64,000 nt of DNA from Chitinophaga pinensis (GTDB lineage: Bacteria > Bacteroidota > Bacteroidia > NS11-12g > UBA9320). Location: assembly GCA_945907065.1 (NCBI GenBank), contig CAMDSC010000002.1, positions 160,803-224,802 of the forward strand, read 5' to 3'. Numbering within the stretch: position 1 is the stretch's first letter; each line of letters starts with the position of its first letter. The notes under the pieces were generated by a model. That model was not told the origin of the DNA and did not search any database. It saw only the letters and a program-made list of their open reading frames with translations. Of this stretch, positions 14,324-37,712 are shown piece after piece. The position numbers and the translations under genes were made by a program.

Positions 14324-15940
14324 ATGCTAAATAAGTCCCTAATATATTCGCTACTATTAATCTCTCCTTTTTGGGCAAATTCTCAAACTATAGAGGATGA
14401 TTTTGAGGGAAATGGAAATATTGGCAATTGGCAAGGTGACAATTGTTTAATTAAAATTGGTTTTCAGAACCCTTTTAAGACAAGCACAAACAGCTCAGAT
14501 AAAGTTTTAGAATACAAGGATAATGGCGGATTATATGCCAATGTCAGATTTGATTTAGCTAAGAATCTTGATTTATCAAAAGAGAGTATATTTTCTTTAA
14601 AAATATATATTCCATCTAGCACTATCTCCGGTAATCAGCTTAATCAAGTTTCCTTAAAATTACAAGATGGCAAAATTGCTGAACCCTGGTCTACACAATC
14701 AGAAATTATTAAACCATTGCTCTTAGATCAATGGCAAACCATTTCATTCGACTTTGCTAAAGATAAATTTATTAATATAAACGGTGGTTCTTTACTACCG
14801 GTGCAGAGAAAGGATTTTAACAGAGTCGTTATTCAGATTAATGGTGAAAACAATAGAGACAGTGTTGTGGCTTATCTGGATGATTTTGAGCACAAAAGGA
14901 CTTTGGTTGCCGGTTCTATTTATACAAAATTAGTGTGGGCTGATGAGTTTGATACTAACGGTCCCATTAATTCTTCCAATTGGTTTCATCAAACCCAATT
15001 ACCAACTTCCGGTAGTTGGTATAATGGAGAAATTCAACATTATACCAATAGGGTTGAAAATTCGGTTGTAGAGAACGGTAATCTAAAGATTATTGCAAAA
15101 AAGGAATCCTACACCGACCAAAGTTATACTAAACAGCACACCTCTGCTAGACTGAATTCTAAGTTTGCATTCAAATATGGCAGGATTGAATTTAGGGCAA
15201 AACTTCCTTCAGGAGTCGGAACCTGGCCTGCAGTCTGGATGCTGGGTAAAAATATTGATGAAAATGGAGCTTATTGGGATAATTTAGGGTTTGGAAAAAC
15301 ATCCTGGCCAGTTTGTGGCGAAATAGATATTATGGAGCATTGGGGTAACAATCAAAATTTTGTTCAAAGTGCAATTCATACACCTTCCAGTTTTGGAAAT
15401 ACTATAAACTTAGGTGGACAAACCATATCAACTGCGTCAACCGCTTTTCATGTTTACACGTTAGAATGGACACCAACCAAATTAGTTTTTAGTGTTGATT
15501 CAAATATTCATTATACTTACGATCCCTTACAAAAGGATCCTAATACCTGGCCTTTTGATGCCGAACAATATCTTCTAATCAATATTGCCATTCAATCCAA
15601 TATTAGCACATCATTTACACAAAGTGCATTAGAAATGGACTATATAAGGGTTTATCAAGAAAGTAATACCAGTAATATTTCCACAACCATCGACAAAAAT
15701 CAATTACTATATCCCAATCCGGTTAGCAACCATTTAACAATAAATATTGAATACACGTCCGAAAGCAGTTTGCCTGTTCAGATTTATGCTATAGATGGTA
15801 AATTGGTATTTTCAAATTCTTACTCTGTAAAGAATAATGCTATTTACATGAATGATTTAGAGACTTTAAACAAAGGAATTTATTTTTTAACCTATTCAAT
15901 AGGAAATAAAAATTATAGATCAAGATTCATAAAAAACTAA
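14324..15940 (+). CDS. Secreted GH16 beta-glucanase (laminarinase-like) with N-terminal CBM-like domain and T9SS type A sorting domain
   Basis: Signal peptide; GH16 catalytic GEIDIMEHWG; C-terminus LLYPNPVSNHLTINIEY...GIYFLTY (Por/T9SS sorting). Confidence 0.92.
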   Translation: MLNKSLIYSLLLISPFWANSQTIEDDFEGNGNIGNWQGDNCLIKIGFQNPFKTSTNSSDKVLEYKDNGGLYANVRFDLAKNLDLSKESIFSLKIYIPSSTISGNQLNQVSLKLQDGKIAEPWSTQSEIIKPLLLDQWQTISFDFAKDKFININGGSLLPVQRKDFNRVVIQINGENNRDSVVAYLDDFEHKRTLVAGSIYTKLVWADEFDTNGPINSSNWFHQTQLPTSGSWYNGEIQHYTNRVENSVVENGNLKIIAKKESYTDQSYTKQHTSARLNSKFAFKYGRIEFRAKLPSGVGTWPAVWMLGKNIDENGAYWDNLGFGKTSWPVCGEIDIMEHWGNNQNFVQSAIHTPSSFGNTINLGGQTISTASTAFHVYTLEWTPTKLVFSVDSNIHYTYDPLQKDPNTWPFDAEQYLLINIAIQSNISTSFTQSALEMDYIRVYQESNTSNISTTIDKNQLLYPNPVSNHLTINIEYTSESSLPVQIYAIDGKLVFSNSYSVKNNAIYMNDLETLNKGIYFLTYSIGNKNYRSRFIKN

Positions 15941-16041
15941 TTGTATGCCTCATAACATAGGCTGCATTTTTGCACTGCAGTGCCATACTCTTTCACAATT
16001 CGACATGAATAGTAAAATAAAATTAATATTAATTTAAGATT

Positions 16042-16116
16042 GATGTAGTAGAGATGTAGTATGTTTTTTGGTTATTACTATATCATTCCTCTAATTTCGT
16101 TTAATGGTTTAAACCA
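16042..16116 (+). promoter_or_regulatory. Island promoter/operator block, copy 1
   Basis: Direct repeat GATGTAGTA-GA-GATGTAGTA (16042-16061), TTTG (16067-16070), 21-nt spacer, TAATTTCG (16092-16099), palindrome TGGTTTAAACCA (16105-16116); matched by block at 21395. Confidence 0.75.
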
Positions 16117-16133
16117 ATTAAATAAAATTTAAA

Positions 16134-18005
16134 ATGAAAAAAAATTACACAACAACCAAATCACACTTAAGTGTGTTAAGAAAAATGGCTCTCTCTATTT
16201 TTATGATGGGGGCAATGAGTGCTTTTGCGCAAAACTCTCCGATTAACTTTGAGTCAGGAGGACAAGGTGCCAATTGGACCTGGACTAGTTTTGAAAATGT
16301 TGGAAATGCCCCAATGCAAATAATCGCCAACCCTTTCAAAAGTGGAATTAACACGTCAAACACTGTAGCCAAATTGACACCTTTAAAAGGTGGTCAGCCT
16401 TGGGCTGGTGTTGAATGCAAGCATGCTACAGACATAGGAAAATTTTCACTTACTGCTGCTAATTCAACCGTAAAAATAATGGTTTACAAATCTGTAAAAA
16501 GTGATGTTGGTATTAAATTTATTGTAGCTAATGGTGGCTCAACCGGTGAAATAAAAGTAGCTAATACCAAAGTGAATGAATGGGAAGAACTTACATTTAA
16601 CTTTGCAGGTAAAATAGGTGAAGCCACTTCAACCGATATCGATCAAGTTGCTATTTTCCCTGATTTCCAAACGAGAACGGATTCTAATATTTGTTATTTC
16701 GACAATATTACCTTTAGTGCAGGAACAGTTTCAGCCCCAACCACTGCGGCTCCTACCCCGACAAGACCATCCGCAGACGTAATTTCTATGTTTAGTAATG
16801 CTTACACTAACAAAACGGTTGATACTTGGAGAACTAGTTGGTCTGCTGGCTCATTAACCGATTTGCAAATTGCAGGTAATGATACCAAAAAATATTCTTC
16901 ACTTGATTTTGTTGGTGTTGAAACTGTAGGTGCAAACGTTATAGACATTGCTTCTATGTTATATTTCCATGTGGATGTTTGGACTGCTGATCTAACAGAA
17001 TTTAAAGTTAAGATCGTTGATTTTGGTGCAGATGGTGCTTATCTTGGAGGAGATGATAAAGAACATCAGATAACCTTAACTCCAAAACAAAATGAGTGGA
17101 ACAGTTTTGATATTCCATTATCAGATTTCACCGGTTTAACTACTAAAAGTCATATAGCTCAGTTAATCTTTAACGGAACACCTCCAGGTTCAGGCACAGT
17201 ATATGTTGATAATGTTTATTACCATAAAACACCTATTGTAGATCCTAATACTCCTCAAACTGCGGCTCCTACTCCAACCTTTGCTTCAACAGATGTAATG
17301 TCATTATTTAGTAATGCTTATACGAACAAAACTGTAGATACTTGGCGTACAAGCTGGTCTGCAGCCACATTAACAGATGTTCAAATTGCAGGAAACGATA
17401 CCAAAAAATACTCAGCTCTTGATTTTGTAGGTGTTGAAACTCTTGGTGCCAACAAAATTGATGCATCAACCATGACTTATTTTTATCTAAATGCATGGAC
17501 TCCAAATCTTACAGCTTTTAAAGTTAAGTTAGTGGATATGGGTGCCGACGGAGTTTTAGGTGGTGGCAATGACAAAGAACATGAATTAACATTAACTGCA
17601 CCAACTTTGAATAGCTGGAATACCTATGATATTAAATTAAGCAGCTTTACTGGCTTAACTACAAAATCTAACATAGGGCAAATAATTTTTGTTGGAAACC
17701 CAACAGGTACAGGTACTGTATTTATAGACAATGTATTGTTTAGAAAATCTACAGTTTCAGTACAAGGTCTAAACAAAACCAAAATCAATCTTTATCCTAA
17801 TCCAGCTTCTGATAATGTAACTATTACTTCTGATAAGCAGATCCAAATGGTAACTGTTTTAAACAATCTTGGTCAGAATGTAATAACCTTGAATTCTGAT
17901 TCTAAGTCAGTGTTATTAGATATATCCAAATTTAACAATGGGGTTTACTTCATTAGAACAACCTTTGAAGAAGGACAAACAACCTCAAAATTAATCGTAG
18001 ATTAA
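16134..18005 (+). CDS. Non-catalytic secreted glycan-binding protein: CBM-like N-terminal domain, two tandem 172-aa repeat domains, T9SS type A sorting domain
   Basis: Repeats start APTPTRPSADVISMFSNAYTNKTVDTWRTSWSAG / APTPTFASTDVMSLFSNAYTNKTVDTWRTSWSAA; C-terminus INLYPNPASDNVTITS...GVYFIRTTFEEGQTTSKLIVD. No catalytic motif seen. Confidence 0.85.
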   Translation: MKKNYTTTKSHLSVLRKMALSIFMMGAMSAFAQNSPINFESGGQGANWTWTSFENVGNAPMQIIANPFKSGINTSNTVAKLTPLKGGQPWAGVECKHATDIGKFSLTAANSTVKIMVYKSVKSDVGIKFIVANGGSTGEIKVANTKVNEWEELTFNFAGKIGEATSTDIDQVAIFPDFQTRTDSNICYFDNITFSAGTVSAPTTAAPTPTRPSADVISMFSNAYTNKTVDTWRTSWSAGSLTDLQIAGNDTKKYSSLDFVGVETVGANVIDIASMLYFHVDVWTADLTEFKVKIVDFGADGAYLGGDDKEHQITLTPKQNEWNSFDIPLSDFTGLTTKSHIAQLIFNGTPPGSGTVYVDNVYYHKTPIVDPNTPQTAAPTPTFASTDVMSLFSNAYTNKTVDTWRTSWSAATLTDVQIAGNDTKKYSALDFVGVETLGANKIDASTMTYFYLNAWTPNLTAFKVKLVDMGADGVLGGGNDKEHELTLTAPTLNSWNTYDIKLSSFTGLTTKSNIGQIIFVGNPTGTGTVFIDNVLFRKSTVSVQGLNKTKINLYPNPASDNVTITSDKQIQMVTVLNNLGQNVITLNSDSKSVLLDISKFNNGVYFIRTTFEEGQTTSKLIVD

Positions 18006-18020
18006 TTTCTCATTTTTTTA

Positions 18021-18058
18021 GCCGGGCAATCTATACTAAGATTGCCCGGCTTTTTTTT
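18021..18058 (+). terminator. Rho-independent terminator
   Basis: gccgggcaatct-atacta-agattgcccggc, 12-bp perfect stem followed by T8. Confidence 0.92.
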
Positions 18059-18386
18059 GTTAATAGATTTGCACATAATCTTCGAAATCTTGTTTGGTTC
18101 GAGGTACTAAAAGGCCAACAAAAAAAATCCCTCTAAAAAAAGAATGACTCATATTAGGTGCTTCAGCGGTCATGCTTTTTGAGTGGAACAAGCAAAAAAA
18201 GAAGAGTGAAAGTGCCTACCAAAAGGGGCACCCCCATATCAATAATAAAAAATGTTCTTGGCCTTATTTTATTGCGATAAAAGCATACTGAAATCTTGAG
18301 TATGTAGGAATTGATCTAACTGATTTGGTGGCCCTAATTTTAGAAAGTACGACAGGAAACAAAGGATTGGCAGAAATATTAACCAT

Positions 18387-21314
18387 TTAAGTCGTATCGT
18401 TTGCGTGTTCTAACTTATCACTGATAGTAGATTTCGTATTAAATAAAAATTCAAACAAATCTTCTTGCGGATGAAGTTTTAATTTTTTACGCAAGCGATA
18501 GCGACTAATTTCAACCCCTCTTACCGAAATACTTAATAGTTGGGCTATTTCTTTACTCGATAAATTCATGCGCAAGTATGCACAAAGTTTCATTTCATGG
18601 GCATTAAGATCAGGGTAAACCTCTTTTAAAGTGATTAAAAAATTACTATGTACATTATTAAAATGTATTGAAAATTGTTTCCATTCTTCATCCAATTTTT
18701 CTTCAGAACTCAAGCGGCGAAGTATTTTTTTAATTTCTGAAGTATCTACATGATCCTTCATTGGCGCGTAAACCTTGTTAAGCTCTTCAGCTATTTTTCC
18801 TAAATATGCTTTTTTTTGCAACAAGTTCATGGCCGTGCTTGCTAGCTCGGCATTTTTGTGTTGCAACTCAGCCTCTAAATTCTCATTCTTTAGTTGAATG
18901 ATTGCTTTTTCTTTTTTTTCCAGCTTTATTCGGTACTTGTAATTTGTTTGACGTTGTTCTTCTTCAAATTTAATTTTCTCAGCAAGCATGCGACTTTGTT
19001 CTTTCTTTTTAAACTTTTTTTTCTGAAGTTTAAGCAGAAGAAAAATAATTAAAGAAAGTATTTCAAAATATAATATGTAAGCCCAAATTGTTCGATACCA
19101 AGGAGCTTCTATTTTAAAAGAATAGGTAACACTTTTAAATTCATAGGATGGACCATATCTGGATTTTACATGAAAAATATAATTCCCTTCTGGAAGGTTG
19201 GTGTATTCTTTTTCATGTTGAAGTGCCCAATGACTCCAATTATTATCATAACCTTCTAAATAATAACTAAATTCTGTTTCGGGTTTATACCTAAAAAATG
19301 AGGAGGCAAAGGAAAAATGAATGGAATTATATTTATAGGGAATAGATACTTTAGTAATCTTGCTGCTAACTTTCCTATTAAAACCACCATAAATTGTAGA
19401 ATCACCATTACCAATAATCTTAACGGATGTTATGTAGGTCAAGTAAGGAAGTTTTTTCTCTCTATATTTCTTGAAGTTGATGTTGTAAAAACCTATTTCA
19501 GAACCAATAAGTACATTTTCAGAATCGTATGGAAATATATTTTCAAAACCACTTAACACACGGTTATTTAATTCAGGTATAAATTTTACTTCCGGTTTGG
19601 ATTCTTGAAAATCAACCACTCCTAACATTTTTTCTTGCACAAACCATATGTTACCCGTGCGATCTTCCCTCAGGTAGCGTAAAGGTCTTTTACCAAATAA
19701 TTTTTGATAGGTTAGTGATGGGATTATTCTTATACCCGCTTTATCTAATTCATATATACCTTGTGTTGTTGCAAATACAATTTTACCTTTCAATTTAAAA
19801 ACATGGTTATCCAAATCCGTTGGTAATCCATTTTGCTTTGTAAATTTCTTAATGTTGTTATCCTTCAAATTAATTCTGAATAAGCCATGGTAAGGGTGAG
19901 ATACCCATATAGATTGACCTTCTACTTCTAGATAACGGCTTGATTCTACAAAATTTTTAATTATTCCATTGTCTTTTAGCTTACCATTTTCGTCCTCAAA
20001 TATTTGAATCCCCAAGTAATTGCCACAAGCAATTTTCGTTGGTGAAGTTCCTAATATTGGCTTAAACGTCCAAAAACCGGATGATTTTGAAACATTGGTA
20101 GCCTGATGTTCTGAAATTGTCCATAAACCATCATCACGTCCGGCTAAAAGTTGGTTGCGCCAAATAGAAAGGTTCCATGTGAGGCCGCTCAAAATTGTTT
20201 TAGGTTCGAACGGCGTTTTACTCAAATCAGAGTTTCTTGCTATAGGTAGCCATTGTATACCCGTTGATAGAGCAAAATATAAATCACCATTTAAAACCGT
20301 TGCTCCATGTCCACTACCATTATTAAAGGACGCTGGATTGATATGCATTATAGGATTATTCCAATCCAAAAGAGAAATACTATTGTCTAACCCAATCCAT
20401 GTACATCCATCAAATCCGTTATGAATACACCGGATTGTGTTGCTAATTAAACCATTATTTGTTGAAATTTTATCAATTACGTTTCCATTTCGGCTAATTT
20501 TATATAAGCCAGTGTTATAAGATCCAACTAAAAAACTTGTTTTATCCAAAACAGCTAAGGATGTAAAATGCTGCTCCGAGTTCATGTTTTTGAGTAAAAA
20601 TGGGTGTATTGAATTATGTGTTAAAAGAAATAATCCATTGCCAGAAGCACTTATTAAACTGGTATCTTTACCAAAGGGTTTAATGTCACTGATCAAAAAA
20701 CCGGAGGGTAACACACTTTGGTTGATTAGTGTTTTCCATCGCCCATTATTAAATTCAAGTATTCCGCTTTTACCATCTTGCGCAATTATTTTATTGTTAT
20801 GTTTTTTGAGTGACAACCATGTTGAATTCGGTTTAAAGTAGGTTATTTTATTCTCAGCATATCTGAAAATTATGTCAGAAGCCATAAAGAACACTTCGTT
20901 TTCATTTACTTCAATATTCCAGATATCAGCAAATGAATTAACAGACTGTGGGAGTTGGTTCTTTAAAGTTGTGTAAACAAGTCTTCCATTTTTATCCGGA
21001 GCGTAATAACCGAACTCGTCCTGAGCACCTGCGAATAACTTTCCATCCGATCCAAATGCAATGGATCTTAAAATAGTTTTATTGGGAACGGGATACAATT
21101 GCCAATTAATTCCATTGTAAACCAAAAGTCCTTCATTATTGGCTATAAATACCCTACCGAAATTATCACGCTCAATATCCCAATTTTGAGTACCTGCGGC
21201 ATACTCTGCTTTAGTGAATACAGATACTTTAACTTTTTCAATGAAAGGTTGACCGAAGGCTGAATTTAGGCAATGTAAGATTATGTAGGAAATACACAAA
21301 GCTTTTCCGACCAA
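18387..21314 (-). CDS. Transmembrane one-component regulator: signal peptide, periplasmic propeller repeats, Y_Y_Y domain, TM, coiled coil, C-terminal LuxR-type HTH
   Basis: NIWFVQEKMLGVVDF, FSYYLEGYDNNWSHWALQHEKEYTNLPEGNYIFHVKSR (Y_Y_Y), TM WAYILYFEILSLIIFLLLKL, HTH LRMNLSSKEIAQLLSISVRGVEISRYRLRKKLKL. No histidine kinase motif seen. Confidence 0.9.
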   Translation of the reverse strand: MVGKALCISYIILHCLNSAFGQPFIEKVKVSVFTKAEYAAGTQNWDIERDNFGRVFIANNEGLLVYNGINWQLYPVPNKTILRSIAFGSDGKLFAGAQDEFGYYAPDKNGRLVYTTLKNQLPQSVNSFADIWNIEVNENEVFFMASDIIFRYAENKITYFKPNSTWLSLKKHNNKIIAQDGKSGILEFNNGRWKTLINQSVLPSGFLISDIKPFGKDTSLISASGNGLFLLTHNSIHPFLLKNMNSEQHFTSLAVLDKTSFLVGSYNTGLYKISRNGNVIDKISTNNGLISNTIRCIHNGFDGCTWIGLDNSISLLDWNNPIMHINPASFNNGSGHGATVLNGDLYFALSTGIQWLPIARNSDLSKTPFEPKTILSGLTWNLSIWRNQLLAGRDDGLWTISEHQATNVSKSSGFWTFKPILGTSPTKIACGNYLGIQIFEDENGKLKDNGIIKNFVESSRYLEVEGQSIWVSHPYHGLFRINLKDNNIKKFTKQNGLPTDLDNHVFKLKGKIVFATTQGIYELDKAGIRIIPSLTYQKLFGKRPLRYLREDRTGNIWFVQEKMLGVVDFQESKPEVKFIPELNNRVLSGFENIFPYDSENVLIGSEIGFYNINFKKYREKKLPYLTYITSVKIIGNGDSTIYGGFNRKVSSKITKVSIPYKYNSIHFSFASSFFRYKPETEFSYYLEGYDNNWSHWALQHEKEYTNLPEGNYIFHVKSRYGPSYEFKSVTYSFKIEAPWYRTIWAYILYFEILSLIIFLLLKLQKKKFKKKEQSRMLAEKIKFEEEQRQTNYKYRIKLEKKEKAIIQLKNENLEAELQHKNAELASTAMNLLQKKAYLGKIAEELNKVYAPMKDHVDTSEIKKILRRLSSEEKLDEEWKQFSIHFNNVHSNFLITLKEVYPDLNAHEMKLCAYLRMNLSSKEIAQLLSISVRGVEISRYRLRKKLKLHPQEDLFEFLFNTKSTISDKLEHANDTT

Positions 21315-21556: not shown

Positions 21557-24500
21557 ATGATAAAAAATCTACTTCTGTTAAGCCTTATGATTTTAGCTTC
21601 CTTCATTACATTTGCTCAAAATGGCAAAGTTGAAGTAGTTAAATCAGGCAATGGATTTAAACTCTCAGTTGATGGTAAAGAAATGTTCATCAATGGAATG
21701 AACTGGGATTACTTTCCCATTGGCACCAACTACAATTACAGTTTATGGACTCAATCGGATGATGTAATAATAGCTGCCTTGGATGGTGAAATGCCCTTGC
21801 TTAAAAATATGGGTGTAAACGTTATCCGCCAGTATACCGGTGTTCCGCCAAAATGGGTAAAATATATTTACGAGAATTATGGCATATACACCATGCTCAA
21901 TCACTCGTTTGGCCGTTATGGTTTAACCATTAAAGGCAAGTGGGAACCTAATACCGACTATTCAAATCCGGATGTGAGAGAAATTTTGCTTAAGGAAACA
22001 AAGGAAATGGTTTCACAATACAAAGAAACCCCGGGAGTTTTAGTCTTTTTATTGGGTAATGAAAATAACTATGGTCTATTTTGGAGAGGTGCTGAAACCG
22101 AGAACATACCAATGGCCGATAGAAAATCTACGCAAGGGGCCAACTTTTTATATAAGTTGTTTAATGAAGCAGTAAAAGAATTAAAGGCTATAGATGCAAA
22201 TCACCCCATGGCTATTTGCAATGGCGACCTTCTTTTTTCTGATATTATTGCCAAAGAGTGTACCGATATAGATATTTTAGGAATTAATAGTTACCGCGGA
22301 CTTACGTTTACCGATTTATATGATCGTGTAAAAAAAGAGTTAAATATGCCGGTAATCCTCACTGAATTTGGTTCAGATGCATTTAACACAATAGCCAATA
22401 AGGAAGATCAAGAGTATCAAGCCAAGGTATTGCTGAGCAACTGGAAGGAAATTTATGAGAATACTAATGGAATGGGTAAAAATGATAACAGTTTAGGTGG
22501 TTTCACATTTCAGTTTAGTGATGGCTGGTGGAAGACCGGTCAAACAATCAATTTGGATGAACATGATGCAACCGCATCCTGGTCCAATGGAGGTTACTCC
22601 AACGATTTTGTGAAAGGTGAAAATAATATGAATGAAGAATGGTTTGGAATTTGTGCTAAAGGCCAAACAAATGAACGTGGCACTTACGAACTTTATCCGC
22701 GTGCAGCATATTATGCGCTGCAAAATGTACACAGATATGATCCTTATACCGGAACCGCTGCCACAATTAATGCATTGTTTAGTGGAATTTCGACAGCAGA
22801 TGCTGCATTAAAAGCAAGAGGAGATAAGGCTGTGCTTGAATCGAAAGATAAAGGTAAATTGTACTTAAGTAATTTGCAAGCCAATTTCAATACTTATCAA
22901 ACCGGAGGAAGCCTCACAACCACTCCAGCAACTGCCAACCCTTCAAATACAACCACATATCCAAGTGGGCAGGGATTTGACCACATGCAATCTTTTAATG
23001 TAGGGGTAACAGCCAGACCAACGCCTAATATGAAAGCAAATGTTCAGTTTAATGTGCTTGGGAATGTTGCCACCAATCCAATAGATGAGGTGTTTTATGA
23101 AAATAGAGGAAGGCCGGTTACTATTCAAACACCAAGCGGACCTCAACAAATTACTGACAATAACAGAATACAGCTTTACAGAGCCGATTATTCATGGGAT
23201 GCTAAAGAATTTAAGTTAACCGGATTTTATAGAACCGGCCACTATCATTGGGGATATGAAGGCGATTTCTTTGGTCTTTACCGGGAGGCCAACTATGGTC
23301 CAAACATTGATTTATACAATGGCAATGCCCCCTTTGGATTTGAATTGGAGGGAAAAAAACGTATGAAAGGATTTAAACTGGCATTTGGTCCTGAATTATG
23401 GTGGGGTGCCAACCCGGCTGTGCTTTTAAAGTACAGCAAAAATGTGGCTGGTTTAGATGTAACAGGAATTTTTCATGAGGATATAACACAGAGAAGTAAT
23501 ATACAAAGTTCTTTTGCCGTTCCGGTGCCAAAAACCAGAAGATTAACCTTAGCCATTGGTAAAAAAATGGAAAAACTTACCTTTGATTTAGGTGGAATGT
23601 GGGGAGGTCAGCCTCTTAATGGAAGAACCTTTCAACTTATTGAAGACAATACTGTGTATGAAGATAAAATCCAAAGTTCTGATAATTTTGGAGGAAAGGC
23701 AAAGTTAACATACTCCACAGGAGCCATACGTTGGTATGGTCTTGCTTCATACATGGGGCTGGTTGCCAATGGAGGTGTAGATCAAACAAGAACCTTTACA
23801 GGATGGGCACTTAAGGACATAGGAAGTGGAAATATGTACAATGTTTTAACAGGATTTACTTACAATGTAGGGAAAATACAAATTGCTCCTAATTTCCTGT
23901 ATCAAAAACCTTTAGCAGGCCCTATAGGACCTGAATTTGTGGCTCCGGCTCGACCAAGAAATATCTTGGATGATCCTTTTTCTGTTAGAGGAAATAGAGA
24001 AACTGTTGGGGGAGAGCTTTTACTTACCTATGATCCTACGCCAGCTACATGGATGTATGAATGGGACAATGACAGAATGGAGGATGCTAAATTTGCAATG
24101 AGTGCAGGTTTTGTTTACCGACACCTTCCAACGGTTCAGGATGCTGCTATCGGTATTCTCGGAAACGGTCGTACCACCTTCGTTTTCCCGGGTTCAGCGC
24201 CGGCACAGGACCTTTGGGAAGTAAATGCAAGAGTTGTTTCTAAATTAAGTCAATCCTTTGGTATTATTGGAAACCTTTATTTTGGAAATGGACAGGCTAA
24301 TGGAAGTAATACCAGAACCATACGTCGTTATGGTGCTGACATTCGCACTATCTATAAAAAAATGAAACTAAACGCCATTGTAAAAATTGATGATTGGGGA
24401 CCCTTTGACTATCACAGAGATTTCAACTTAACATTTCCGCTTCAGTTAATCGGTGATTGGTCGGTAGAAATAGGTAAACCCGATTGGTTTTTGCTACCAG

Positions 24501-27223: not shown

Positions 27224-30200
27224 ATGTCAGGCCAAAAACAAGTAAATGAAGAAACTCCTGTAGAAATTACACGATTAAAAATAGAAGGAGAAAATTTTTA
27301 TTGTATTTCTAATTTTGATGAAATGCGTCCGTTTTTAATGAGCATAGTAAGTGATAATAATCATTGGATGTTTATCTCAAGCAATGGAGCACTTACAGCC
27401 GGCCGAAAGAATGCTGAATATGCATTATTTCCATACTATACAGTCGATAAAATTACAGAGTCCTTTGACACAACAGGTGGAAAGTCTATTTTTCAGATTA
27501 TCCGTAACAGTGAAACCCATATATGGGAACCTTTTTCTGAACGGAATGCTGGTTTGTATAAAACAAGTAGAAATTTGTACAAAAACGCCCTAGGTAATAA
27601 AATTATTTTTGAAGAAATTAATCACGACTTTGAACTTACCTTCCGATATGAGTGGAACACAAGCGGTATCTATGGATTTATTCGTAAATCATCCTTAGAA
27701 AATAAAAGCGACAAAGATTTAACCATCCATATCCTCGATGGCATTCAAAACATAATGCCTGACGGTGTAAGCAGTGATTTGCAGAACGCCTCAAGTAATC
27801 TGGTAGATGCCTATAAACGCAATGAACTAAACATTGAATCAGGTATGGGTATTTTTGCTCTTAGTGCTATCATCGTAGACAAGGCTGAGCCGAGTGAAGC
27901 TCTAAAAGCCAATGTGGCTTATTCCATTGGCTTGGATAATCCAACATATCTTCTTTCTTCCTTACAATTGAATAATTTTAGAAAGGGTCTTCCTGTTGCG
28001 CAGGAAGAAGATATAAAAGCAGAAAGGGCTGCTTATTTTATAAACAAAGAAATAACCTTAGCTCCCCATAGCAAAAAAAACTGGCTTATTGTTGCCGATG
28101 TAAATCAAAGTCAATCTGATGCGGTAGCACTAATTAAAGCGATAGAAACCAATAAAGCGTTAAAAAAACAGATTGAGGAGGATATCGAACTTGGATCCAA
28201 ACAATTGATTGAACTCAATGCATCCTCAGATAGCTTGCAATTATCAGCAGATGTTTTTAGAGATACGCGTCATTTTTCCAATACCCTGTTCAATATTATG
28301 CGTGGTGGCGTTTTTGATTTCAATTACCAAATCGAAAAATGGGATTTGTCCAATTACCTTGCTGCGGCCAATAAAGAGGTTTATAAAAATAACAAAAAGT
28401 TATTAAATAGCTTAGATGATTCCTTCAGTGTTTTTTCCTTAGAAAAATTAACGAAACAATGTGAAGATAAAAATTTCAGGCGACTGTGCACAGAGTACAT
28501 GCCCCTCAAATTTAGCCGAAGACACGGAGATCCAAGTAGACCATGGAATAAATTTTCTATTAACACTCGCAGTGAAATAGACCATTCAAAAATTCTGGAT
28601 TTCGAGGGTAATTGGAGAGATATTTTTCAAAATTGGGAGGCTTTAGCTATTTCATACCCTGCTTTTACAAAAAGTATGATTCACAGGTTTTTGAATGCGA
28701 GCACGTTTGAAGGGTACAATCCTTACAGGATAACCAAAGGTGGTTTTGATTGGGAAACAGTAGAACATAACAACCCCTGGTCTTACATCGGCTATTGGGG
28801 AGATCATCAGATAATTTACTTGCTCAAATTATTAGAGATCAATGAGAAATATTACCCGGGCCAATTAAGTGAATACCTCAATAAAGACCTGTTTGTATAT
28901 GCCAACTTACCCTACAGGATAAAAAACTACAAAGAAATTTTAAAAAACTCCAAGGACACTATTGAATTTGACGAAAAACTTGATGCTAAAATCAGGAAAA
29001 ATCGTGAAACTATGGGATCAGATGCTGCGCTTTTGGTCGCACAAAACGACAAAATTTATTCGGTTAATTTTATAGAAAAAATATTAGCAACCGTTCTTTC
29101 CAAGCTTTCCAATTTTATACCGGAGGGCGGAATTTGGATGAATACTCAACGTCCGGAATGGAACGATGCCAATAATGCACTGGTAGGTAATGGGGTTTCC
29201 ATGGTTACGCTAAACTACCTGCACAGATTTCTCGAATTTTTTGGAAAACTAATAGAACAAACCACTCATGACCGTGTAGAATTATCCAATGAGTTAATCA
29301 TATTCTTTAAAAAAATACAAGCAACCTTTGATAAATATGAGTATCTGCTAAAAGATGATATAGGCGATGTACATCGAAAAGAAATACTGGATAGTCTTGG
29401 GCTAGCTGCAAGCAATTATAGAGAACATATATATAATAAGGGGTTTTGGGGTGAGAAAAGGACTATTTCTTACCGCAGACTCAGAAGTTTTGTTAAAGTT
29501 AGTCTCAGATTTATTGAACATACCATCAAAGCCAATAAGCGGGATGACCATATGTATCACTCCTATAATTTGATGACCGTTAAAAGCGATAAGGAGATTT
29601 CTATTTCTTCCCTCCCTGAAATGCTTGAAGGTCAAGTTGCCGTGTTAAGCTCAGGTTTTTTATCGCCTGAAAATGCTATAAAACTATTGGACAGTATGAA
29701 GAACAGTGCGCTCTTTCGTCCGGATCAATACAGTTATTTACTTTATCCTAACAAGCAGCTCCCTAAATTTTTAGAGAAAAATAGAATTCCCAAGGAGGCG
29801 GTAAGTAGCTCAAAACTTCTTACAGAAATGGTAAAAGTTGGTGATAAATCACTGATAGAACAGGATATAAAAGGGGAGTATCATTTTAACGGTAAGTTTA
29901 AAAATGCTTTTGATTTGAACAAAGCCTTAGAAATATTAGAGGAAACCCATTTTGCTCCCTTGGGCAAACAGGAAATAAAACACATTCTAAATACCTTTGA
30001 ATTGGTGTTCAACCATAAGGCATTTACCGGGCGTTCAGGAACATTCTATGGTTACGAGGGACTCGGTTCGATCTATTGGCATATGGTTTCTAAACTACAA
30101 CTGTCAGTGCAAGAAGTTTGTCTTAGAGCGGTGGAAAACGAAGAAAGCCCTGCAGTAATAGGCAGACTTTTGGAGCATTATTATGAAATAAATGCAGGAG

Positions 30201-30676
30201 TAGGTGTGCACAAATCGCCCATGCTTTACGGAGCATTTCCCACCGATCCGTATTCACATACACCAACCGGCAAAGGAGCGCAGCAACCCGGAATGACCGG
30301 TCAAGTAAAAGAAGACATTTTAAGTAGATTTGGCGAATTGGGCGTTTTTGTAAATAAAGGATGTATAAATTTTAATCCTTGTTTATTGCGAAAAGATGAG
30401 TTTACTCAGCAAGATCGCATGTTTCATTATGTAACCATAAACAAGGAGCATAAAACATTTGCTCCTGAACCCGGTTCACTTTGCTTTACCTTTTGCCAGG
30501 TACCCGTTATTTACCGTTTGTCTCAAGACAACCATCTGGAAATTGAAAAAGAAGGAGGATTATTGATCACCGACAACTCGCTTCACCTGGATGAAGAAAC
30601 AAGTGCCCACATCTTTAATCGAACCGGTGAAATAACAAAAATTACCGTGCATGTTAAAGAATCTATTTTAAAATAA
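27224..30676 (+). CDS. Cytoplasmic beta-1,3-glucan phosphorylase, GH149-like (GH94/GH149/GH161 superfamily)
   Basis: 1150 aa, no signal peptide; GH94-superfamily-like catalytic region NTQRPEWNDANNALVGNGVSMVTLNYLHRFLEF; C-terminal YGAFPTDPYSHTPTGKGAQQPGMTGQVKEDILSRFGELGVFV; located in beta-1,3-glucan locus. Confidence 0.7.
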   Translation: MSGQKQVNEETPVEITRLKIEGENFYCISNFDEMRPFLMSIVSDNNHWMFISSNGALTAGRKNAEYALFPYYTVDKITESFDTTGGKSIFQIIRNSETHIWEPFSERNAGLYKTSRNLYKNALGNKIIFEEINHDFELTFRYEWNTSGIYGFIRKSSLENKSDKDLTIHILDGIQNIMPDGVSSDLQNASSNLVDAYKRNELNIESGMGIFALSAIIVDKAEPSEALKANVAYSIGLDNPTYLLSSLQLNNFRKGLPVAQEEDIKAERAAYFINKEITLAPHSKKNWLIVADVNQSQSDAVALIKAIETNKALKKQIEEDIELGSKQLIELNASSDSLQLSADVFRDTRHFSNTLFNIMRGGVFDFNYQIEKWDLSNYLAAANKEVYKNNKKLLNSLDDSFSVFSLEKLTKQCEDKNFRRLCTEYMPLKFSRRHGDPSRPWNKFSINTRSEIDHSKILDFEGNWRDIFQNWEALAISYPAFTKSMIHRFLNASTFEGYNPYRITKGGFDWETVEHNNPWSYIGYWGDHQIIYLLKLLEINEKYYPGQLSEYLNKDLFVYANLPYRIKNYKEILKNSKDTIEFDEKLDAKIRKNRETMGSDAALLVAQNDKIYSVNFIEKILATVLSKLSNFIPEGGIWMNTQRPEWNDANNALVGNGVSMVTLNYLHRFLEFFGKLIEQTTHDRVELSNELIIFFKKIQATFDKYEYLLKDDIGDVHRKEILDSLGLAASNYREHIYNKGFWGEKRTISYRRLRSFVKVSLRFIEHTIKANKRDDHMYHSYNLMTVKSDKEISISSLPEMLEGQVAVLSSGFLSPENAIKLLDSMKNSALFRPDQYSYLLYPNKQLPKFLEKNRIPKEAVSSSKLLTEMVKVGDKSLIEQDIKGEYHFNGKFKNAFDLNKALEILEETHFAPLGKQEIKHILNTFELVFNHKAFTGRSGTFYGYEGLGSIYWHMVSKLQLSVQEVCLRAVENEESPAVIGRLLEHYYEINAGVGVHKSPMLYGAFPTDPYSHTPTGKGAQQPGMTGQVKEDILSRFGELGVFVNKGCINFNPCLLRKDEFTQQDRMFHYVTINKEHKTFAPEPGSLCFTFCQVPVIYRLSQDNHLEIEKEGGLLITDNSLHLDEETSAHIFNRTGEITKITVHVKESILK

Positions 30677-30680: not shown

Positions 30681-31964
30681 ATGCTGAAATTGAGTTCAAT
30701 ATATCGTTTTTTAGCACTGCTATTTATAATTATTATTGTCTCATGTGGCACCCCAAACTCTAAAAATAATTACCTAAAAAAAACAAGGACTACCAAAACC
30801 GCAGCTCAAATACTAGGCGATTCAAATTACTTGGCTATTTGTTACGGCGGATACCGTCATGATGCAAGAGACTCGCAGTCTACCATAGCTCAAATCAAAG
30901 AGGATATGAAATTGCTGAATGCAATGGGCATTAAAGTGCTAAGGACTTATAATACCAAGTTAAAAGAAATAGAAAATATACTGGAATCAATAACTGATTT
31001 ACAAAAAGAAGATTCTACGTTTGAATTGTATGTGATGTTAGGGGCTTGGATAGATTGCGAAAATGCCTGGACAGACAAAGTGCCAAATCATGAAAAGGAG
31101 AATGAAGTAGCAAATGCTGCGGAGATTCAAAGAGCTGTTGAATTAGCAAATAAATACCCTCATATTATAAAAATAATTTCTGTTGGTAATGAAGCCAGGG
31201 TTAAATGGGCAACAGCGTATTTTGTTCAACCAAAAATAATATTGAAATGGGTAAACTATTTACAAAATCTTAAGAAGGAAAGTAAATTAGATAAAAATCT
31301 TTGGATAACAAGTTCCGATAACTTCGCATCCTGGGGTGGAGGTGATACAATATATCATTCTAAGAATTTGGAGAAATTGATTCAGGCAGTCGATTTTGTA
31401 TCAATACATACATATCCGGTGCTTGACACGCATTATGATCCCGATTTTTGGGGTAGTAAAAAATCAGAACTACAACTTCCAAAAAGTGAAGCGACGGAAT
31501 TGCTTATGCAAAGAGCGGTAGGGTTTGCTCAGAAGCAATACGCCAGTGTAGTGAAATATATCAGTCGTGTTGATAGTACAAAACAAATACATATTGGTGA
31601 AACAGGCTGGGCAAGTGCTTCAGACGGATACTTTGGCAGTGATGGTTCTAAAGCTTGTGATGAGTTTAAGGCAGGTATTTACTACAAATTAATGCGTAAA
31701 TGGACTAACGAGGCCAAAATCTCATGCTTTTATTTTGAAGCCTTTGACGAGAAATGGAAAGCTGCCGGCAACATTAAAGATGCAGAGAATCATTTTGGGT
31801 TATTTACGATTAATGGCCAGGCCAAATATGGTTTATGGCATTTGGTAGATAAAGGTGTTTTTAAAGAATTGAAGCGAGATGGAAATCCCATTGTAAAAAC
31901 TTACAATGGCAAACAAGAAGACTTAATGAAAATGGTTGAACTACCTGAAAATTTAAAAAAATAG
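30681..31964 (+). CDS. GH17-like lipoprotein
   Basis: Lipobox LFIIIIVSC; IKIISVGNEARVKW (acid/base) and IHIGETGWASASDG (nucleophile); paralogous to 36789-37712. Confidence 0.82.
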   Translation: MLKLSSIYRFLALLFIIIIVSCGTPNSKNNYLKKTRTTKTAAQILGDSNYLAICYGGYRHDARDSQSTIAQIKEDMKLLNAMGIKVLRTYNTKLKEIENILESITDLQKEDSTFELYVMLGAWIDCENAWTDKVPNHEKENEVANAAEIQRAVELANKYPHIIKIISVGNEARVKWATAYFVQPKIILKWVNYLQNLKKESKLDKNLWITSSDNFASWGGGDTIYHSKNLEKLIQAVDFVSIHTYPVLDTHYDPDFWGSKKSELQLPKSEATELLMQRAVGFAQKQYASVVKYISRVDSTKQIHIGETGWASASDGYFGSDGSKACDEFKAGIYYKLMRKWTNEAKISCFYFEAFDEKWKAAGNIKDAENHFGLFTINGQAKYGLWHLVDKGVFKELKRDGNPIVKTYNGKQEDLMKMVELPENLKK

Positions 31965-31970: not shown

Positions 31971-33482
31971 ATGAAAACTCAACATCATTTCTGTTCCTTA
32001 AAAACCATTTTTATTGGGATGATTTGCGCTGTTTTTATTCAATGTAATACCAATGAAAAAATGACTGTGGATGTATACGAAACTTCGGAAAAAGGAAATG
32101 CCTTAACGTTAATTAGAGATTTTAAACCGGCTAAAAAATCATTAACCATAAATCTTAATCCAGAGAAGCAATTTCAGAAAATTACAGGATTTGGTGGGTC
32201 GTTTACAGAAGCTTCTGCATTTCTATTAAATAAAATGAGTCCTGAAAATAGAAAGAAAATATTAGAGGCCTATTTTGGCAATGCAGGCGCAAACTATTCT
32301 TTAACCAGAACACATATTGCTTCTTGTGATTTCTCTTTAACCAATTATACCTATGCTAAAGTCGTAAATGACTTGGAAATGAAGCATTTTAGCATTCAAG
32401 ATGATAAAAATGATTTAATTCCGATGATTTTAGAAGCTCAAAAAATTTCAAAAGATGGATTTAAAATTATAGCTTCCCCTTGGACAGCTCCACCCTGGAT
32501 GAAGGACAATAAAAGTTATGTAGGTGGAAAACTATTGCCTGAGTTTAATGATGCTTTTGCTTTGTACTTTTCAAAATATTTATCGGCTTATAAAAAAGAA
32601 GGGATTGATATTTGGGGTATTACAGTGATGAATGAGCCTCATGGTAATGGAAATAATTGGGAAAGCACCTTGTTTTCACCTAAAGAAATGACTGATTTTG
32701 TTCAAAATCATTTAGGGCCAAAATTAGAAAAAGATGGTTGGGGTAAAGTCAATATTTTCGGCTATGATCAAAACCGGGCCGGATTAAAAGAATGGGTAGA
32801 TGAAATGTACAGAGATAAAAAATCATCCAAATATTTTGCAGGTACAGCCATGCATTGGTATGAAAGTACTTACGATTATTTTCCGGATGCCCTTCAATAT
32901 GCTCACAAAAAAGCACCTGAAAAATATTTAATTGAAACCGAAGGTTGTGTAGATTCTGAAGTTCCAAAATGGCGAGATGATGCCTGGTATTGGAAAAAAG
33001 AAGCCACCGATTGGGGTTGGGATTGGGCAAGTGAAAAAGACCGTCATTTACATCCAAAGTATGCACCCGTCAATAGATACGCAACCGATATAATAGGATG
33101 CTTAAACAATTATGTAGATGGTTGGATAGATTGGAATATGGTTTTAGATAGGCAAGGCGGTCCCAATTGGTTCAAAAATTGGTGTGTAGCCCCAGTAATT
33201 GTCGATCCGGATATGGATGAGGTGTATTTTACGCCTTTATATTATGTCATGGCTCATTTTAGTAAATTTATGCGTCCGGGAGCTGTGAAAATTGGTTGTG
33301 AGATTAATCATAAAGAAGTGATGACCACTGCCGTAAAGAATCCGGATGGAAGTATTGTAATTGCTTTATTTAATCCCACTAAAGTGAAATACACTATTTT
33401 AATCCACATAAATAAAGAGATAAAAAATATCACAATCGATGCCAAGGCATTACAAACAATAGTCATAAAAAATAATAAATAA
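31971..33482 (+). CDS. GH30 family glucosylceramidase/beta-1,6-glucanase-like lipoprotein
   Basis: ITGFGGSFTEASAFLLNKM, IIASPWTAPPWMKDN, GITVMNEPHGN (acid/base), YLIETEGCVD (nucleophile). Confidence 0.92.
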   Translation: MKTQHHFCSLKTIFIGMICAVFIQCNTNEKMTVDVYETSEKGNALTLIRDFKPAKKSLTINLNPEKQFQKITGFGGSFTEASAFLLNKMSPENRKKILEAYFGNAGANYSLTRTHIASCDFSLTNYTYAKVVNDLEMKHFSIQDDKNDLIPMILEAQKISKDGFKIIASPWTAPPWMKDNKSYVGGKLLPEFNDAFALYFSKYLSAYKKEGIDIWGITVMNEPHGNGNNWESTLFSPKEMTDFVQNHLGPKLEKDGWGKVNIFGYDQNRAGLKEWVDEMYRDKKSSKYFAGTAMHWYESTYDYFPDALQYAHKKAPEKYLIETEGCVDSEVPKWRDDAWYWKKEATDWGWDWASEKDRHLHPKYAPVNRYATDIIGCLNNYVDGWIDWNMVLDRQGGPNWFKNWCVAPVIVDPDMDEVYFTPLYYVMAHFSKFMRPGAVKIGCEINHKEVMTTAVKNPDGSIVIALFNPTKVKYTILIHINKEIKNITIDAKALQTIVIKNNK

Positions 33483-33485
33483 CTC

Positions 33486-35825
33486 ATGTCACATCAAATT
33501 TCAACACAAAAAGTTCCCTTAGGGCAAAAAATTGCATTTGGTTTAGGAATGCTGGCCAACCAAATGTTTCCTGCGGCTTTAGGAATTTTTATGGTTGTTT
33601 TGGTAGAGAATTTAGGAATGCCATCATGGATGTGGGGTGTTTTATTCTTCGTGCCAAGAATAGTGGATGCTTTTTTTGATCCAATTATGGGATTCATTTC
33701 TGATAATACAAAATCAGTTTGGGGAAGACGAAGACAATATGTCTTTATAGGTTCTATAATAATGGGAATCGCATTTATGATTATGTGGCAATTGTACAGA
33801 GAAGATAGTGTGATGTACAATTTTACCTTTTTTCTAACTTTCTCACTGATATTCCATATAGGGCTTTCCATTTTTAGTGTTCCATATGTTGCGATGGGTT
33901 ATGAAATGAGTGATGATTTTCATGAACGCACAAGTATTATGGCAATTTCTCAATGGATTGGACAATTTGCCTGGGTTATTGCACCTTGGTTTTGGGTGGT
34001 AATGTATGATCCTTCGTGGTTTCCAAATGCTGATACAGCTACCAGAACATTAGCTATTTGGGTTGGTACAGTTTTTATGTTATTAGCCATGGTTCCTGCC
34101 ATATTTATTAAAAGCAAATCAACCAAGTTTGATGATACCTTAGCACCACTCACCTATAAAACCATTGGAGGAAGTTTAAAAGAAATTTTAATTAGCTTTA
34201 AAGAAGCATTTTCTAATAAACCTTTTAGAAAACTTTGTATTGCTACGTTTTTTATTTTTAATGCCTTTAATACCGTTGCAGGTTTTACTTTTTTCATCGT
34301 TGTTTATTATTTATTTAATGGTGATACTAAAGCAGCAGGTATTTGGCCTACACTTTTTGGGTGTGGAGGTGCTTTAGCAACTACTTTTATTGTTATTCCC
34401 ATTGTAGCTTGGATAGCAAAAAAAATGGAGAAAAAGAGAGCTTTTTTGATTTGCCAAGGCATCTCTATTTTTGGTTACATTTTGTTATGGTTTCTTTTCG
34501 TTCCGGGTAAACCATATATGTTTTTGTTTGCTTTGCCTTTCTTTTCTTTTGGTATTGGAAGTTTGTTTACGTTGATGATGTCCATGACGGCCGATGTTTG
34601 TGATATGGATGAATTAGAGTCGGGTAAAAGAAGAGAAGGTGTTTTTGGTGCTATATATTGGTGGATGGTAAAGTTTGGTTTTGCGATAGCAGGATTATTG
34701 ACAGGAGTTATTATGTCGGTAGTTGCCTTTAAAGCAGGTGCTCCAACACAACCGGAAGGTGCCGTTACCGGATTAAGATTGTTCTTTTCCGGGGTGCCAA
34801 TTTTTGGAACTTTAGTTGCCATGTGGGTCATGTGGAATTATGATCTTACAGAGAAAAAAGCCAGGGAAATAAAAAAAGAATTGGATGCCAGAAAAGAAAA
34901 AATAGGATCCTCAGCTTATCTGTCAGGGAAATTAAAATCATTACTTCAAAATAGTAAATTAAATAAAATCATTGGAACCGATTACAGTCAAAAAACGGAA
35001 ACAGAAATAGAAACGGTATTTTCTGAAACATTTAATACGGGCATAAATGGATTATGCTTTGGCCCTTATGTTGAAGGTCAAAAAATTGGTGATACTTTAT
35101 CACAAGATCAAATTAAAAGAAGAATTGATATCATAGCACCCCATACCAAATGGATAAGAACTTTTTCATGCACGGAAGGGAATGAATTAATTCCCGAAAT
35201 TGCACACCAAAAAGGCATCAAAACCGTGGTTGGAGCATGGATAAGCAATGATAAGCAAAGAAATGAAATGGAAATAAATGCGTTGATAAAACTGGCAAAT
35301 GCCGGTTTAGTTGATATTGCAGCAGTAGGTAATGAGGTATTGCACCGAGGCGAACTATCGGAAGCCGAAGTGATTGATTACATAAAAAGAGTGAAGAAAG
35401 CCATTCCAAGTCCTATTGAGGTGGGTTATGTGGATGCCTATTATCAATTTATAGAAAGACCTAAGTTGATTGATGCTTGTGACTTACTTTTGTGTAATTT
35501 CTATCCTTTCTGGGAAGGTGCTGCCATTGATTATTCGACGTCCTATCTTTCAAATATGCTTGAGGTGACAAAAGAAATCAGTCAAGGTAAAAGGATTATC
35601 ATAACAGAAACAGGATGGCCAAGTTTTGGAGAAATAGTTGAGAGTGCTGTGCCATCCAGAATAAATGCGATGAAATATTTTATAATTTCACAAGAATGGG
35701 CAAAAAACAATAACCTGGAAATATTCCATTTCTCATCCTTTGATGAATCCTGGAAAGTGATTCAAGAAGGAAAATTGGGAACATCATGGGGATTGTGGGA
35801 TAAAAACGAAAAATTCAAGTATTAA
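33486..35825 (+). CDS. GPH-family (MFS) sugar:cation symporter fused to C-terminal GH17 domain
   Basis: N-terminal ~455 aa: MFVPRIVDAFFDPIMGFISDNTKSVWGRRRQYVFIGSI (GPH signature) and ~12 TM; C-terminal from ~35020: GINGLCFGPYVEGQK...VDIAAVGNEVLHRG...IIITETGWPSFG. One uninterrupted ORF. Confidence 0.9.
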   Translation: MSHQISTQKVPLGQKIAFGLGMLANQMFPAALGIFMVVLVENLGMPSWMWGVLFFVPRIVDAFFDPIMGFISDNTKSVWGRRRQYVFIGSIIMGIAFMIMWQLYREDSVMYNFTFFLTFSLIFHIGLSIFSVPYVAMGYEMSDDFHERTSIMAISQWIGQFAWVIAPWFWVVMYDPSWFPNADTATRTLAIWVGTVFMLLAMVPAIFIKSKSTKFDDTLAPLTYKTIGGSLKEILISFKEAFSNKPFRKLCIATFFIFNAFNTVAGFTFFIVVYYLFNGDTKAAGIWPTLFGCGGALATTFIVIPIVAWIAKKMEKKRAFLICQGISIFGYILLWFLFVPGKPYMFLFALPFFSFGIGSLFTLMMSMTADVCDMDELESGKRREGVFGAIYWWMVKFGFAIAGLLTGVIMSVVAFKAGAPTQPEGAVTGLRLFFSGVPIFGTLVAMWVMWNYDLTEKKAREIKKELDARKEKIGSSAYLSGKLKSLLQNSKLNKIIGTDYSQKTETEIETVFSETFNTGINGLCFGPYVEGQKIGDTLSQDQIKRRIDIIAPHTKWIRTFSCTEGNELIPEIAHQKGIKTVVGAWISNDKQRNEMEINALIKLANAGLVDIAAVGNEVLHRGELSEAEVIDYIKRVKKAIPSPIEVGYVDAYYQFIERPKLIDACDLLLCNFYPFWEGAAIDYSTSYLSNMLEVTKEISQGKRIIITETGWPSFGEIVESAVPSRINAMKYFIISQEWAKNNNLEIFHFSSFDESWKVIQEGKLGTSWGLWDKNEKFKY

Positions 35826-35841
35826 CAATAAGACTAAAAAT

Positions 35842-36789
35842 ATGTCATTTAGAGAAGGTCATTTATTTACAAAACAGAATCAGGAACAGTATTCTAATTT
35901 TCAACAAGAAGATAATTCTGATTTTCAACACCATTATATTCATATTGATTATCCTGAACTTTCAGAAGATGATTTAAGAAGTTTGTGGTACAAAACACTT
36001 CAAAATGGGATACATGGCATTTGCTTTAGTATTTATGAAGATGGACAAAAACCGGGATCAATTATTACTGAAGCTCAGGTAGAACGTCGTATTAAAATTT
36101 TAGAACCTTATGCAAAATGGGTTCGTTCGTTTTCTTGTATCGAAGGCAATGAACATGTACCAAAAGTAGCCAAAAAACACGGCATGAAGACGCTTGTAGG
36201 TGCCTGGCTTGGAGATGATTTAGAATTGAATGAAAGAGAAATTGAAGGCTTGATTTCCATGGCAAAGGAGGGTTTGGTTGATGTTGCAGCGGTAGGAAAT
36301 GAAGTGATGTATAGAAAAGATTTGACCGAAGAGCAATTGTTAGCCTATATTCAAAGAGTAAAAGATGCTATTCCTCATATCCCGGTGGGTTATGTAGATG
36401 CCTATTATGAATTTTCTCACAGACCACGGATTACAGAAATTTGTGATGTGATTTTAACCAATTGTTACCCATATTGGGAAGGATGCCCTATAGAATATTC
36501 TTTTGCTCACATGCAAAGTATGTTTGAATCTGCTAGAAATGCGGGTGAAGGCAAGCGCGTAATCATAACAGAAACAGGTTGGCCTAGTCAGGGAGGTTCT
36601 TTTAAAGCGTCTCTGGCCAGTTATGAAAATGCAATGCGATACTTTATAGATTGCCAAAACTGGTGTAATCTAAACGGAATTGAAAGTTTCTATTTTTCTT
36701 CATTTGATGAGTCATGGAAAGTAGGTCCAGAAGGCGAAGTAGGTGCCTATTGGGGACTTTGGGATAAAAATGAACAGCTAAAATTTTAA
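35842..36789 (+). CDS. Cytoplasmic GH17 family protein, paralogue of the GH17 domain fused to the symporter
   Basis: No signal peptide; GIHGICFSIYEDGQKPGS...VDVAAVGNEVMYRK...VIITETGWPSQGG...FYFSSFDESWKVGPEGEVGAYWGLWDKNEQLKF. Confidence 0.88.
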   Translation: MSFREGHLFTKQNQEQYSNFQQEDNSDFQHHYIHIDYPELSEDDLRSLWYKTLQNGIHGICFSIYEDGQKPGSIITEAQVERRIKILEPYAKWVRSFSCIEGNEHVPKVAKKHGMKTLVGAWLGDDLELNEREIEGLISMAKEGLVDVAAVGNEVMYRKDLTEEQLLAYIQRVKDAIPHIPVGYVDAYYEFSHRPRITEICDVILTNCYPYWEGCPIEYSFAHMQSMFESARNAGEGKRVIITETGWPSQGGSFKASLASYENAMRYFIDCQNWCNLNGIESFYFSSFDESWKVGPEGEVGAYWGLWDKNEQLKF

Positions 36790-37712
36790 TGACAAATTTT
36801 TTTAAAACTTTCAATATGCCTTATGCAAAGGCTATTTGTTACTCTGGATTTAGGAATGGACAGCAACCGGGAGGTATTAATCCATCATATGAAGAAATAA
36901 AAGAAGATTTATTGCTTTTAAAATCTCACTGGAAATATCTCCGATTGTATGATTGTGATGAACATGCATTAACAGTAATTAAGGTAATAAAAGATGAAAA
37001 ATTAGACTTTAAATTAATGTTGGGTGCATATATTGTAGCAGAAATGAATAATTATGGTTGCCCATGGAATGGCGGTATTTATGAGGAAAAGCAACTAAAA
37101 GAAAACAAAAAAAATAATGACTTAAAAATTCAGCGTCTGATAGATTGGGCTAACCAATTTCCTGAAATTATTTTTTCCGTATCCTTAGGAAATGAAGCGT
37201 GTGTTGATTGGACAGACCATTTTGTGCCTGTTGATCGCGTTATAGAATTTGCAAAAAAAGTTAAGCTAAGTATTAAGCAACCTGTTACTTTTTGTGAAAA
37301 TTATGTTCCATGGTTAAATTATCTTACACCACTGGCGGAGTATATAGATTTTATTTCGATACACACCTACCCTGTTTGGGAATATAAACATATTCATGAA
37401 GCGGTTGAGTATACCATAGCCAACTATGAATCAGTTGCTAAACTATATCCTAAAATTCCCATAGTAATAACTGAAGCGGGATGGGCCACCAATTCACATG
37501 GGATAGGAATTGATACTGAACATGTTAATGAGGTCAATCAGAAAATTTATTTTGAAGATTTAATGAATTGGACAACTAAAAACAATATCCTAAATTTCTT
37601 TTTTGAAGCCTTTGATGAACAATGGAAAGGTTCATCAGATCCAATGGAACCAGAAAAACATTGGGGAATATTTAAAACAGATCGCACCCCTAAGCTGGTT
37701 TTAAAAAAATAA
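36789..37712 (+). CDS. Cytoplasmic GH17-like protein, second subtype
   Basis: No signal peptide; AICYSGFRNGQQPGG...VSLGNEACVDW...IVITEAGWATNSHG; overlaps previous stop codon (ATGA-type coupling). Confidence 0.82.
   Translation: MTNFFKTFNMPYAKAICYSGFRNGQQPGGINPSYEEIKEDLLLLKSHWKYLRLYDCDEHALTVIKVIKDEKLDFKLMLGAYIVAEMNNYGCPWNGGIYEEKQLKENKKNNDLKIQRLIDWANQFPEIIFSVSLGNEACVDWTDHFVPVDRVIEFAKKVKLSIKQPVTFCENYVPWLNYLTPLAEYIDFISIHTYPVWEYKHIHEAVEYTIANYESVAKLYPKIPIVITEAGWATNSHGIGIDTEHVNEVNQKIYFEDLMNWTTKNNILNFFFEAFDEQWKGSSDPMEPEKHWGIFKTDRTPKLVLKK

Follow-up and report, generated by a model that had tools for sequence, protein, structure and literature searches.

A stretch of 64,000 nucleotides from Chitinophaga pinensis (GCA_945907065.1; the window hereafter) carries, between gltX and an HsdR_N gene, a complete beta-1,3/1,6-glucan operon, in which a gene encoding a signal peptide, a GH158-like glucanase and a predicted outer-membrane barrel in a single chain (21557-24679, plus strand) is followed directly by a gene for a lipoprotein with carbohydrate-binding-module (CBM)-like and Big_2 domains (24712-26118, plus strand). 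All genes that an earlier first-pass annotation had named in this island were recovered in place, and its claim that the window encodes neither a SusC/SusD pair nor a TonB receptor was borne out by a search with the SusC family model. The two partial matches to that model (1613-4099 and 53030-53713) were rejected as hidden TonB receptors, being a DUF5686 protein, whose CarboxypepD-like N-terminus sets off the model, and a small CarboxypepD protein. Compared with a canonical polysaccharide utilization locus (PUL), the island thus has carbohydrate-active enzymes (CAZymes) for one glycan co-located with a regulator and an inner-membrane transporter, and lacks the SusC/SusD pair.

Downstream of the fusion and lipoprotein genes, and likewise on the plus strand, lies a GH16 lipoprotein that looks like a surface-type endo-laminarinase (26156-26971), with an acidic N-terminus and beta-1,3-glucanases/laminarinases as nearest solved structures (2.8e-69). 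The next gene (27224-30676) is, judged by sequence, certainly a GH149 beta-1,3-glucan phosphorylase (NCBIfam NF058639, 1755.7 bits; curated cut-off 1150) and has no apparent signal peptide. It precedes a GH17 lipoprotein of periplasmic type (30681-31964), whose N-terminus is non-acidic and whose match to PDB 6FCG (phmmer, 4.4e-161) is orthologue-like. We take 6FCG to be the Formosa endo-laminarinase FbGH17A, following the account of its solved structure in PMC6246565. The operon continues with a GH30 enzyme, probably a periplasmic beta-1,6-glucosidase (31971-33482; Pfam GH30 6.3e-78), a GPH/MFS symporter with a cytoplasmic GH17 at its C-terminus (33486-35825; MFS_2 1.5e-67, GH17 1.1e-9) and two putatively cytoplasmic GH17 proteins, translated without a visible signal peptide (35842-36789, Pfam GH17 1.3e-12; 36789-37712, 1.5e-7), bringing the island's GH17 domains to four. 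Divergently transcribed from the operon is a one-component regulator of the Reg_prop/Y_Y_Y/coiled-coil/LuxR type (18387-21314, minus strand; Pfam Y_Y_Y 2.5e-8, GerE 9.6e-5), which adjoins the fusion in many other loci as well. A promoter scan gave no excess over shuffled sequences.

The island enzymes match characterized laminarin families, and the gene set resembles the laminarin PULs of Formosa, Polaribacter and Muricauda (PMC6246565, PMC13188888), with GH16, a GH17A lipoprotein, GH30_1, an MFS/GPH transporter with GH17B, GH149 and a LuxR-type regulator; the Muricauda set was described in 2026 (PMC13188888). Transporter and GH17B are fused in Formosa, as here, and this protein, FbGH17b, joining transporter and hydrolase in one chain, has been known since 2018 (PMC6246565). 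In the Formosa PULs, however, SusC/SusD stand beside the enzymes, a position taken in the island by the barrel-glucanase fusion and its lipoprotein. GH149-containing CAZyme clusters of Bacteroidetes that combine GH149 with GH16, GH17 and GH30_1 without a susCD-like pair have likewise been known since 2018 (PMC5827456); in the text consulted, neither an outer-membrane route nor a barrel fusion is described for them, whereas the island has a barrel fusion. An export or remodeling of the cell's own beta-glucan could be imagined from such a gene set, given that GH149 is reversible and that a cytoplasmic GH17 of Muricauda is a transglycosylase (PMC13188888), but there is no glycosyltransferase among the island families, and their content matches the laminarin-induced laminarin PULs of Formosa (PMC6246565), making this function very improbable.

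A glucanase joined to a predicted outer-membrane barrel

Residues 25-430 of the fusion protein (21629-22846, plus strand) form a TIM barrel in the AlphaFold2 model. Both by sequence (phmmer, 2.9e-5) and by fold (Foldseek, 2.5e-15, including BuGH158 from the Bacteroides beta-1,3-glucan locus), the best-matching family in the PDB was GH158, although the sequence link is remote (2.9e-5 with a single sequence, 4.1e-4 with a profile). The domain combines the TIM-barrel fold with the catalytic Asn-Glu and Glu of GH158: by homology, N168/E169 would be the acid-base and E270 the nucleophile, and all three residues are identical in 99 of 99 aligned fused sequences. The matching residues of BuGH158 are essential, as judged by mutation (PMC7157763). 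BuGH158 itself, from the 1,3-glucan locus of Bacteroides uniformis (PMC7157763, PDB 6PAL), shares the clan GH-A TIM barrel, the Asn-Glu acid/base and the Glu nucleophile, yet is only about 14-15% identical, carries no membrane barrel and works beside a SusC/SusD pair.

The C-terminal part (amino acids 435-1038; 22859-24670, plus strand) was modeled by AlphaFold2, from alignments of close relatives (53-92% identity), as a barrel of ~24 long strands in which long loops alternate with short turns. All fifty listed PDB matches of this part were outer-membrane barrels, namely TonB receptors, porins, AlgE, LptD and FimD, with the sugar porins ScrY and LamB as well as MOMP among the porins, which supports the predicted domain as a member of the outer-membrane barrel class. 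Neither a plug domain nor a match to TIGR04056 or to a TonB-receptor barrel was found in the fusion protein with Pfam and NCBIfam.

Loops measured on average 23 residues after odd strands versus 5.5 after even ones (Mann-Whitney p = 0.0002; the strand assignment omits short hairpins at 125-136 and 295-308 of the barrel model). Since the periplasmic side of known outer-membrane barrels is the one with the short turns, both barrel ends, and hence the enzyme domain, are predicted to be periplasmic. Invariant positions made up 34% of the predicted extracellular loops, 27% of the strands and 20% of the turns; such invariance is unusual for surface loops and, to the extent that the model holds, would be fitting for contact with a substrate or a partner.

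An N-terminal passenger followed by a C-terminal barrel is also the layout of autotransporters, and a helix precedes the first strand, so that the barrel might display the enzyme on the surface rather than conduct sugars. The stand-alone homologues described below, however, end at amino acids 426-430, immediately ahead of the first strand. The helix thus belongs to the enzyme, and we rejected it as an autotransporter linker; the enzyme is joined to the barrel without any linker that could carry it through the pore. Together with ~24 predicted strands, against the 12 known for autotransporters, this sets the protein apart from the classical (type Va) kind, and the invariance of the predicted extracellular loops also speaks against a mere export pore. 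We consider surface display improbable.

Conserved gene order and the adjacent lipoprotein

At least 599 relatives of the fusion occur in GTDB genomes, the best 80 of which come from Flavobacteriia, Chitinophagia, Cytophagales, Bacteroidales, Saprospiria, Ignavibacteria, Kapaibacteria and one Chlorobiota record; cultured carriers such as Flavobacterium aquatile LMG 4008 exist. In the class, 16 of 397 genomes have the fusion and two a stand-alone enzyme, the barrel being joined to the enzyme in all 16 matches. The order regulator, fusion, lipoprotein, GH16, GH149, GH17, GH30, GPH recurs in dozens of genomes, arguing that the island is more than a chance assembly. Where at least 9 kb downstream were available (65 loci), GH16 was found in 65, GH149 in 55, any GH17 in 54, GPH in 47 and GH30 in 45, counts in which related families can cross-hit. 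The fusion shares 84% identity with its versions in two genomes of another family (G039 and G052), for which gpmI reaches only 57-60%, as compared with 92% and 93%, respectively, in one congener (G004); with gpmI as the single marker, this points to a spread of the island by horizontal transfer. One further fusion (L146) lies in a metagenome-assembled genome labeled Thermoanaerobaculia (Acidobacteriota), groups among Bacteroidota and is accompanied by ~20 SusC matches; this genome is probably misbinned or mislabeled.

A CBM-like protein directly follows the fusion in 96 of 96 loci (at least four of these being the same genome fetched twice), and this invariant neighborhood suggests that fusion and lipoprotein occupy the position of SusC and SusD. 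As in a susC-susD pair, the gene for a large outer-membrane barrel is followed immediately by one for a surface-type lipoprotein; unlike SusC, the fusion has an enzyme domain in the place of the plug, and neither protein matches TIGR04056 or a SusD model (PF07980 and PF12771 were not among the Pfam matches of 24712-26118). A PDB search with the lipoprotein yielded nothing useful. With approximate start codons, a strict lipobox was recognized in 69 of the 96 CBM-like neighbors, a rule that missed the QTGC box of the window's own protein. In Bacteroidetes, lipoproteins are marked for surface export by an acidic N-terminus (PMC5080379), and the orthologues of 24712-26118 usually have such an LES-like N-terminus. 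Acidic residues stand near the Cys in CBM-like and GH16 lipoproteins (Asp or Glu at +4, for instance, in 65% and 83%, respectively) but in few GH17 and GH30 proteins (0-20%), suggesting that capture and the first cut take place outside the cell and trimming in the periplasm.

As capture partner, the first-pass annotation had proposed a different protein, a T9SS-secreted CBM-like one (16134-18005, plus strand; Pfam scan). Its gene forms an accessory unit with that of a secreted GH16 carrying a T9SS sorting tail (14324-15940, plus strand; Pfam GH16 6.7e-21, Por_Secre_tail 1.1e-12), is separated from the operon by a strong terminator-like hairpin (18020-18051) that closes this unit, and is not consistently adjacent to the fusion. 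Of that proposal, then, the fusion stands as the best outer-membrane candidate, and the T9SS protein gives way to the lipoprotein 24712-26118.

Import across the outer membrane

If import relied on a SusC/SusD pair or another TonB receptor encoded elsewhere, the fusion would be merely a membrane-anchored enzyme. There is precedent for such dispersal in Maribacter, which grows on laminarin with scattered SusC/SusD genes (PMC11345257), and the 2.70 Mb assembly (99.9% complete) holds two full SusC (contigs C13 and C6), each with SusD-like_2, besides other TonB-receptor-like frames; PF07980 SusD had no match genome-wide. CAZymes are near neither pair. The C6 pair shares its cluster with a phosphonatase-like hydrolase, a phosphonate HD-domain oxygenase, a heme-type TonB receptor and phosphoesterases. 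Housekeeping genes surround the C13 pair, whose SusC was found in four of the five congeners searched; the fusion was seen in none of the five. By gene context, neither pair is an obvious beta-glucan transporter, and the fallback offered earlier, a SusC/SusD pair elsewhere, thus appears unlikely in this genome. As for an anchoring role, a lipid anchor would do, as in the stand-alone forms of the enzyme, and a conserved barrel of ~600 residues would be needless.

These stand-alone forms are five relatives in one genus (g10) that consist of the enzyme without the barrel; they have lipoprotein N-termini, the residue at +2 after the lipid Cys is not acidic, and they group as a single clade next to the fused proteins (support 100/99). 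In two of their loci (L041 and L043), a SusC/SusD pair and a separate lipoprotein, of PKD type in L043, belong to the same island, which suggests, at the level of gene content, that barrel and SusC/SusD are alternatives. Strict mutual exclusion of the two was rejected. Among 63 fusion loci whose upstream flank measures at least 8 kb, SusC or SusD lies nearby in four (a pair in L144, L156 and L159, and a SusD fragment at the edge of L079), and L062, with a shorter flank, has a pair too, so that L062, L144, L156 and L159 hold both. Conversely, five genomes that are 90-99% complete and carry the fusion (G010, G039, G052, G054 and G069) yielded neither SusC (at E<=1e-60) nor SusD (models PF12771 and PF07980). 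As far as these models tell, the island therefore exists where SusC/SusD uptake is unavailable. Overall, we regard uptake by a receptor encoded elsewhere as rather unlikely, albeit the most serious of the alternatives.

We favor, with moderate confidence, a laminarin-type beta-1,3/1,6-glucan operon in which the fusion and the lipoprotein 24712-26118 carry out outer-membrane import in place of SusC/SusD. The fusion is the best candidate for this function, as it is the sole recognizable outer-membrane barrel in a conserved operon, sits in the position of SusC and occurs in the five near-complete genomes just described; that the barrel transports glucan is inferred from gene position, predicted structure and the absence of the usual transporter. 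Several observations weigh against this assignment. The barrel models are of moderate confidence (pLDDT 72.7 and 77.8), and no single known barrel is close (TM about 0.2-0.4). The four loci with both systems indicate that the fusion need not replace SusC/SusD, and three of the five stand-alone loci (L042, L044 and L045) have no SusC/SusD in the stretch fetched. The absence of SusC/SusD from the five genomes depends on the models used, which for SusD were PF12771 and PF07980, and other TonB receptors exist in the C. pinensis genome that could serve.

In the mechanism that we propose, the surface GH16 would make the first cut in the glucan, the surface lipoprotein would hold it at the pore, and oligosaccharides would cross the ~24-strand barrel. 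At its periplasmic mouth, the GH158-like domain would cut the incoming oligosaccharides and so keep up the gradient, with no need for TonB energy. After trimming and debranching by the periplasmic GH17 and GH30, the symporter-GH17 fusion would import the products and cut them, and cytoplasmic GH17 and GH149 would finish the conversion to glucose and glucose-1-phosphate. FbGH17b sits in the inner membrane, and the barrel-glucanase fusion would be its outer-membrane counterpart. The island's own candidates for the two membranes (33486-35825 and 21557-24679) each combine a transporter with a hydrolase placed where the sugar would arrive.

More tentatively, and with a little less than even confidence, fusion and lipoprotein may represent a second, widespread TonB-independent glycan-uptake pair of Bacteroidota and neighboring phyla, in which cutting by the tethered glucanase drives import. 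A literature search covering few subscription journals turned up no paper on the barrel-glucanase fusion or on its partnership with a lipoprotein, nor any published SusCD-free barrel route beyond PMC5827456, and there is a real chance that the fusion constitutes a new uptake mechanism. PUL finders rely on SusC/SusD, so that such loci end up among the transporter-less 'CAZyme clusters'. Were the barrel fusion the transporter, many genomes would gain a predicted route for laminarin uptake, and TonB-free, hydrolysis-coupled import could be tested with one gene pair.

Two minor observations concern the surroundings. The C6 cluster of the C. pinensis genome (G000; L051:1336-17144), comprising SusC/SusD-like_2, PhnX-like, Phn-HD, HpnW and DUF5690 proteins, the heme-type TonB receptor and two beta-propeller phosphoesterases, is a possible outer-membrane system for phosphonates. 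At the downstream border of the island, a small stand-alone HSDR_N_2 protein (37779-38153, minus strand; Pfam scan) is encoded between the operon and the gene at 38280-39290, and its gene has the same position in the congener G004 (L054).

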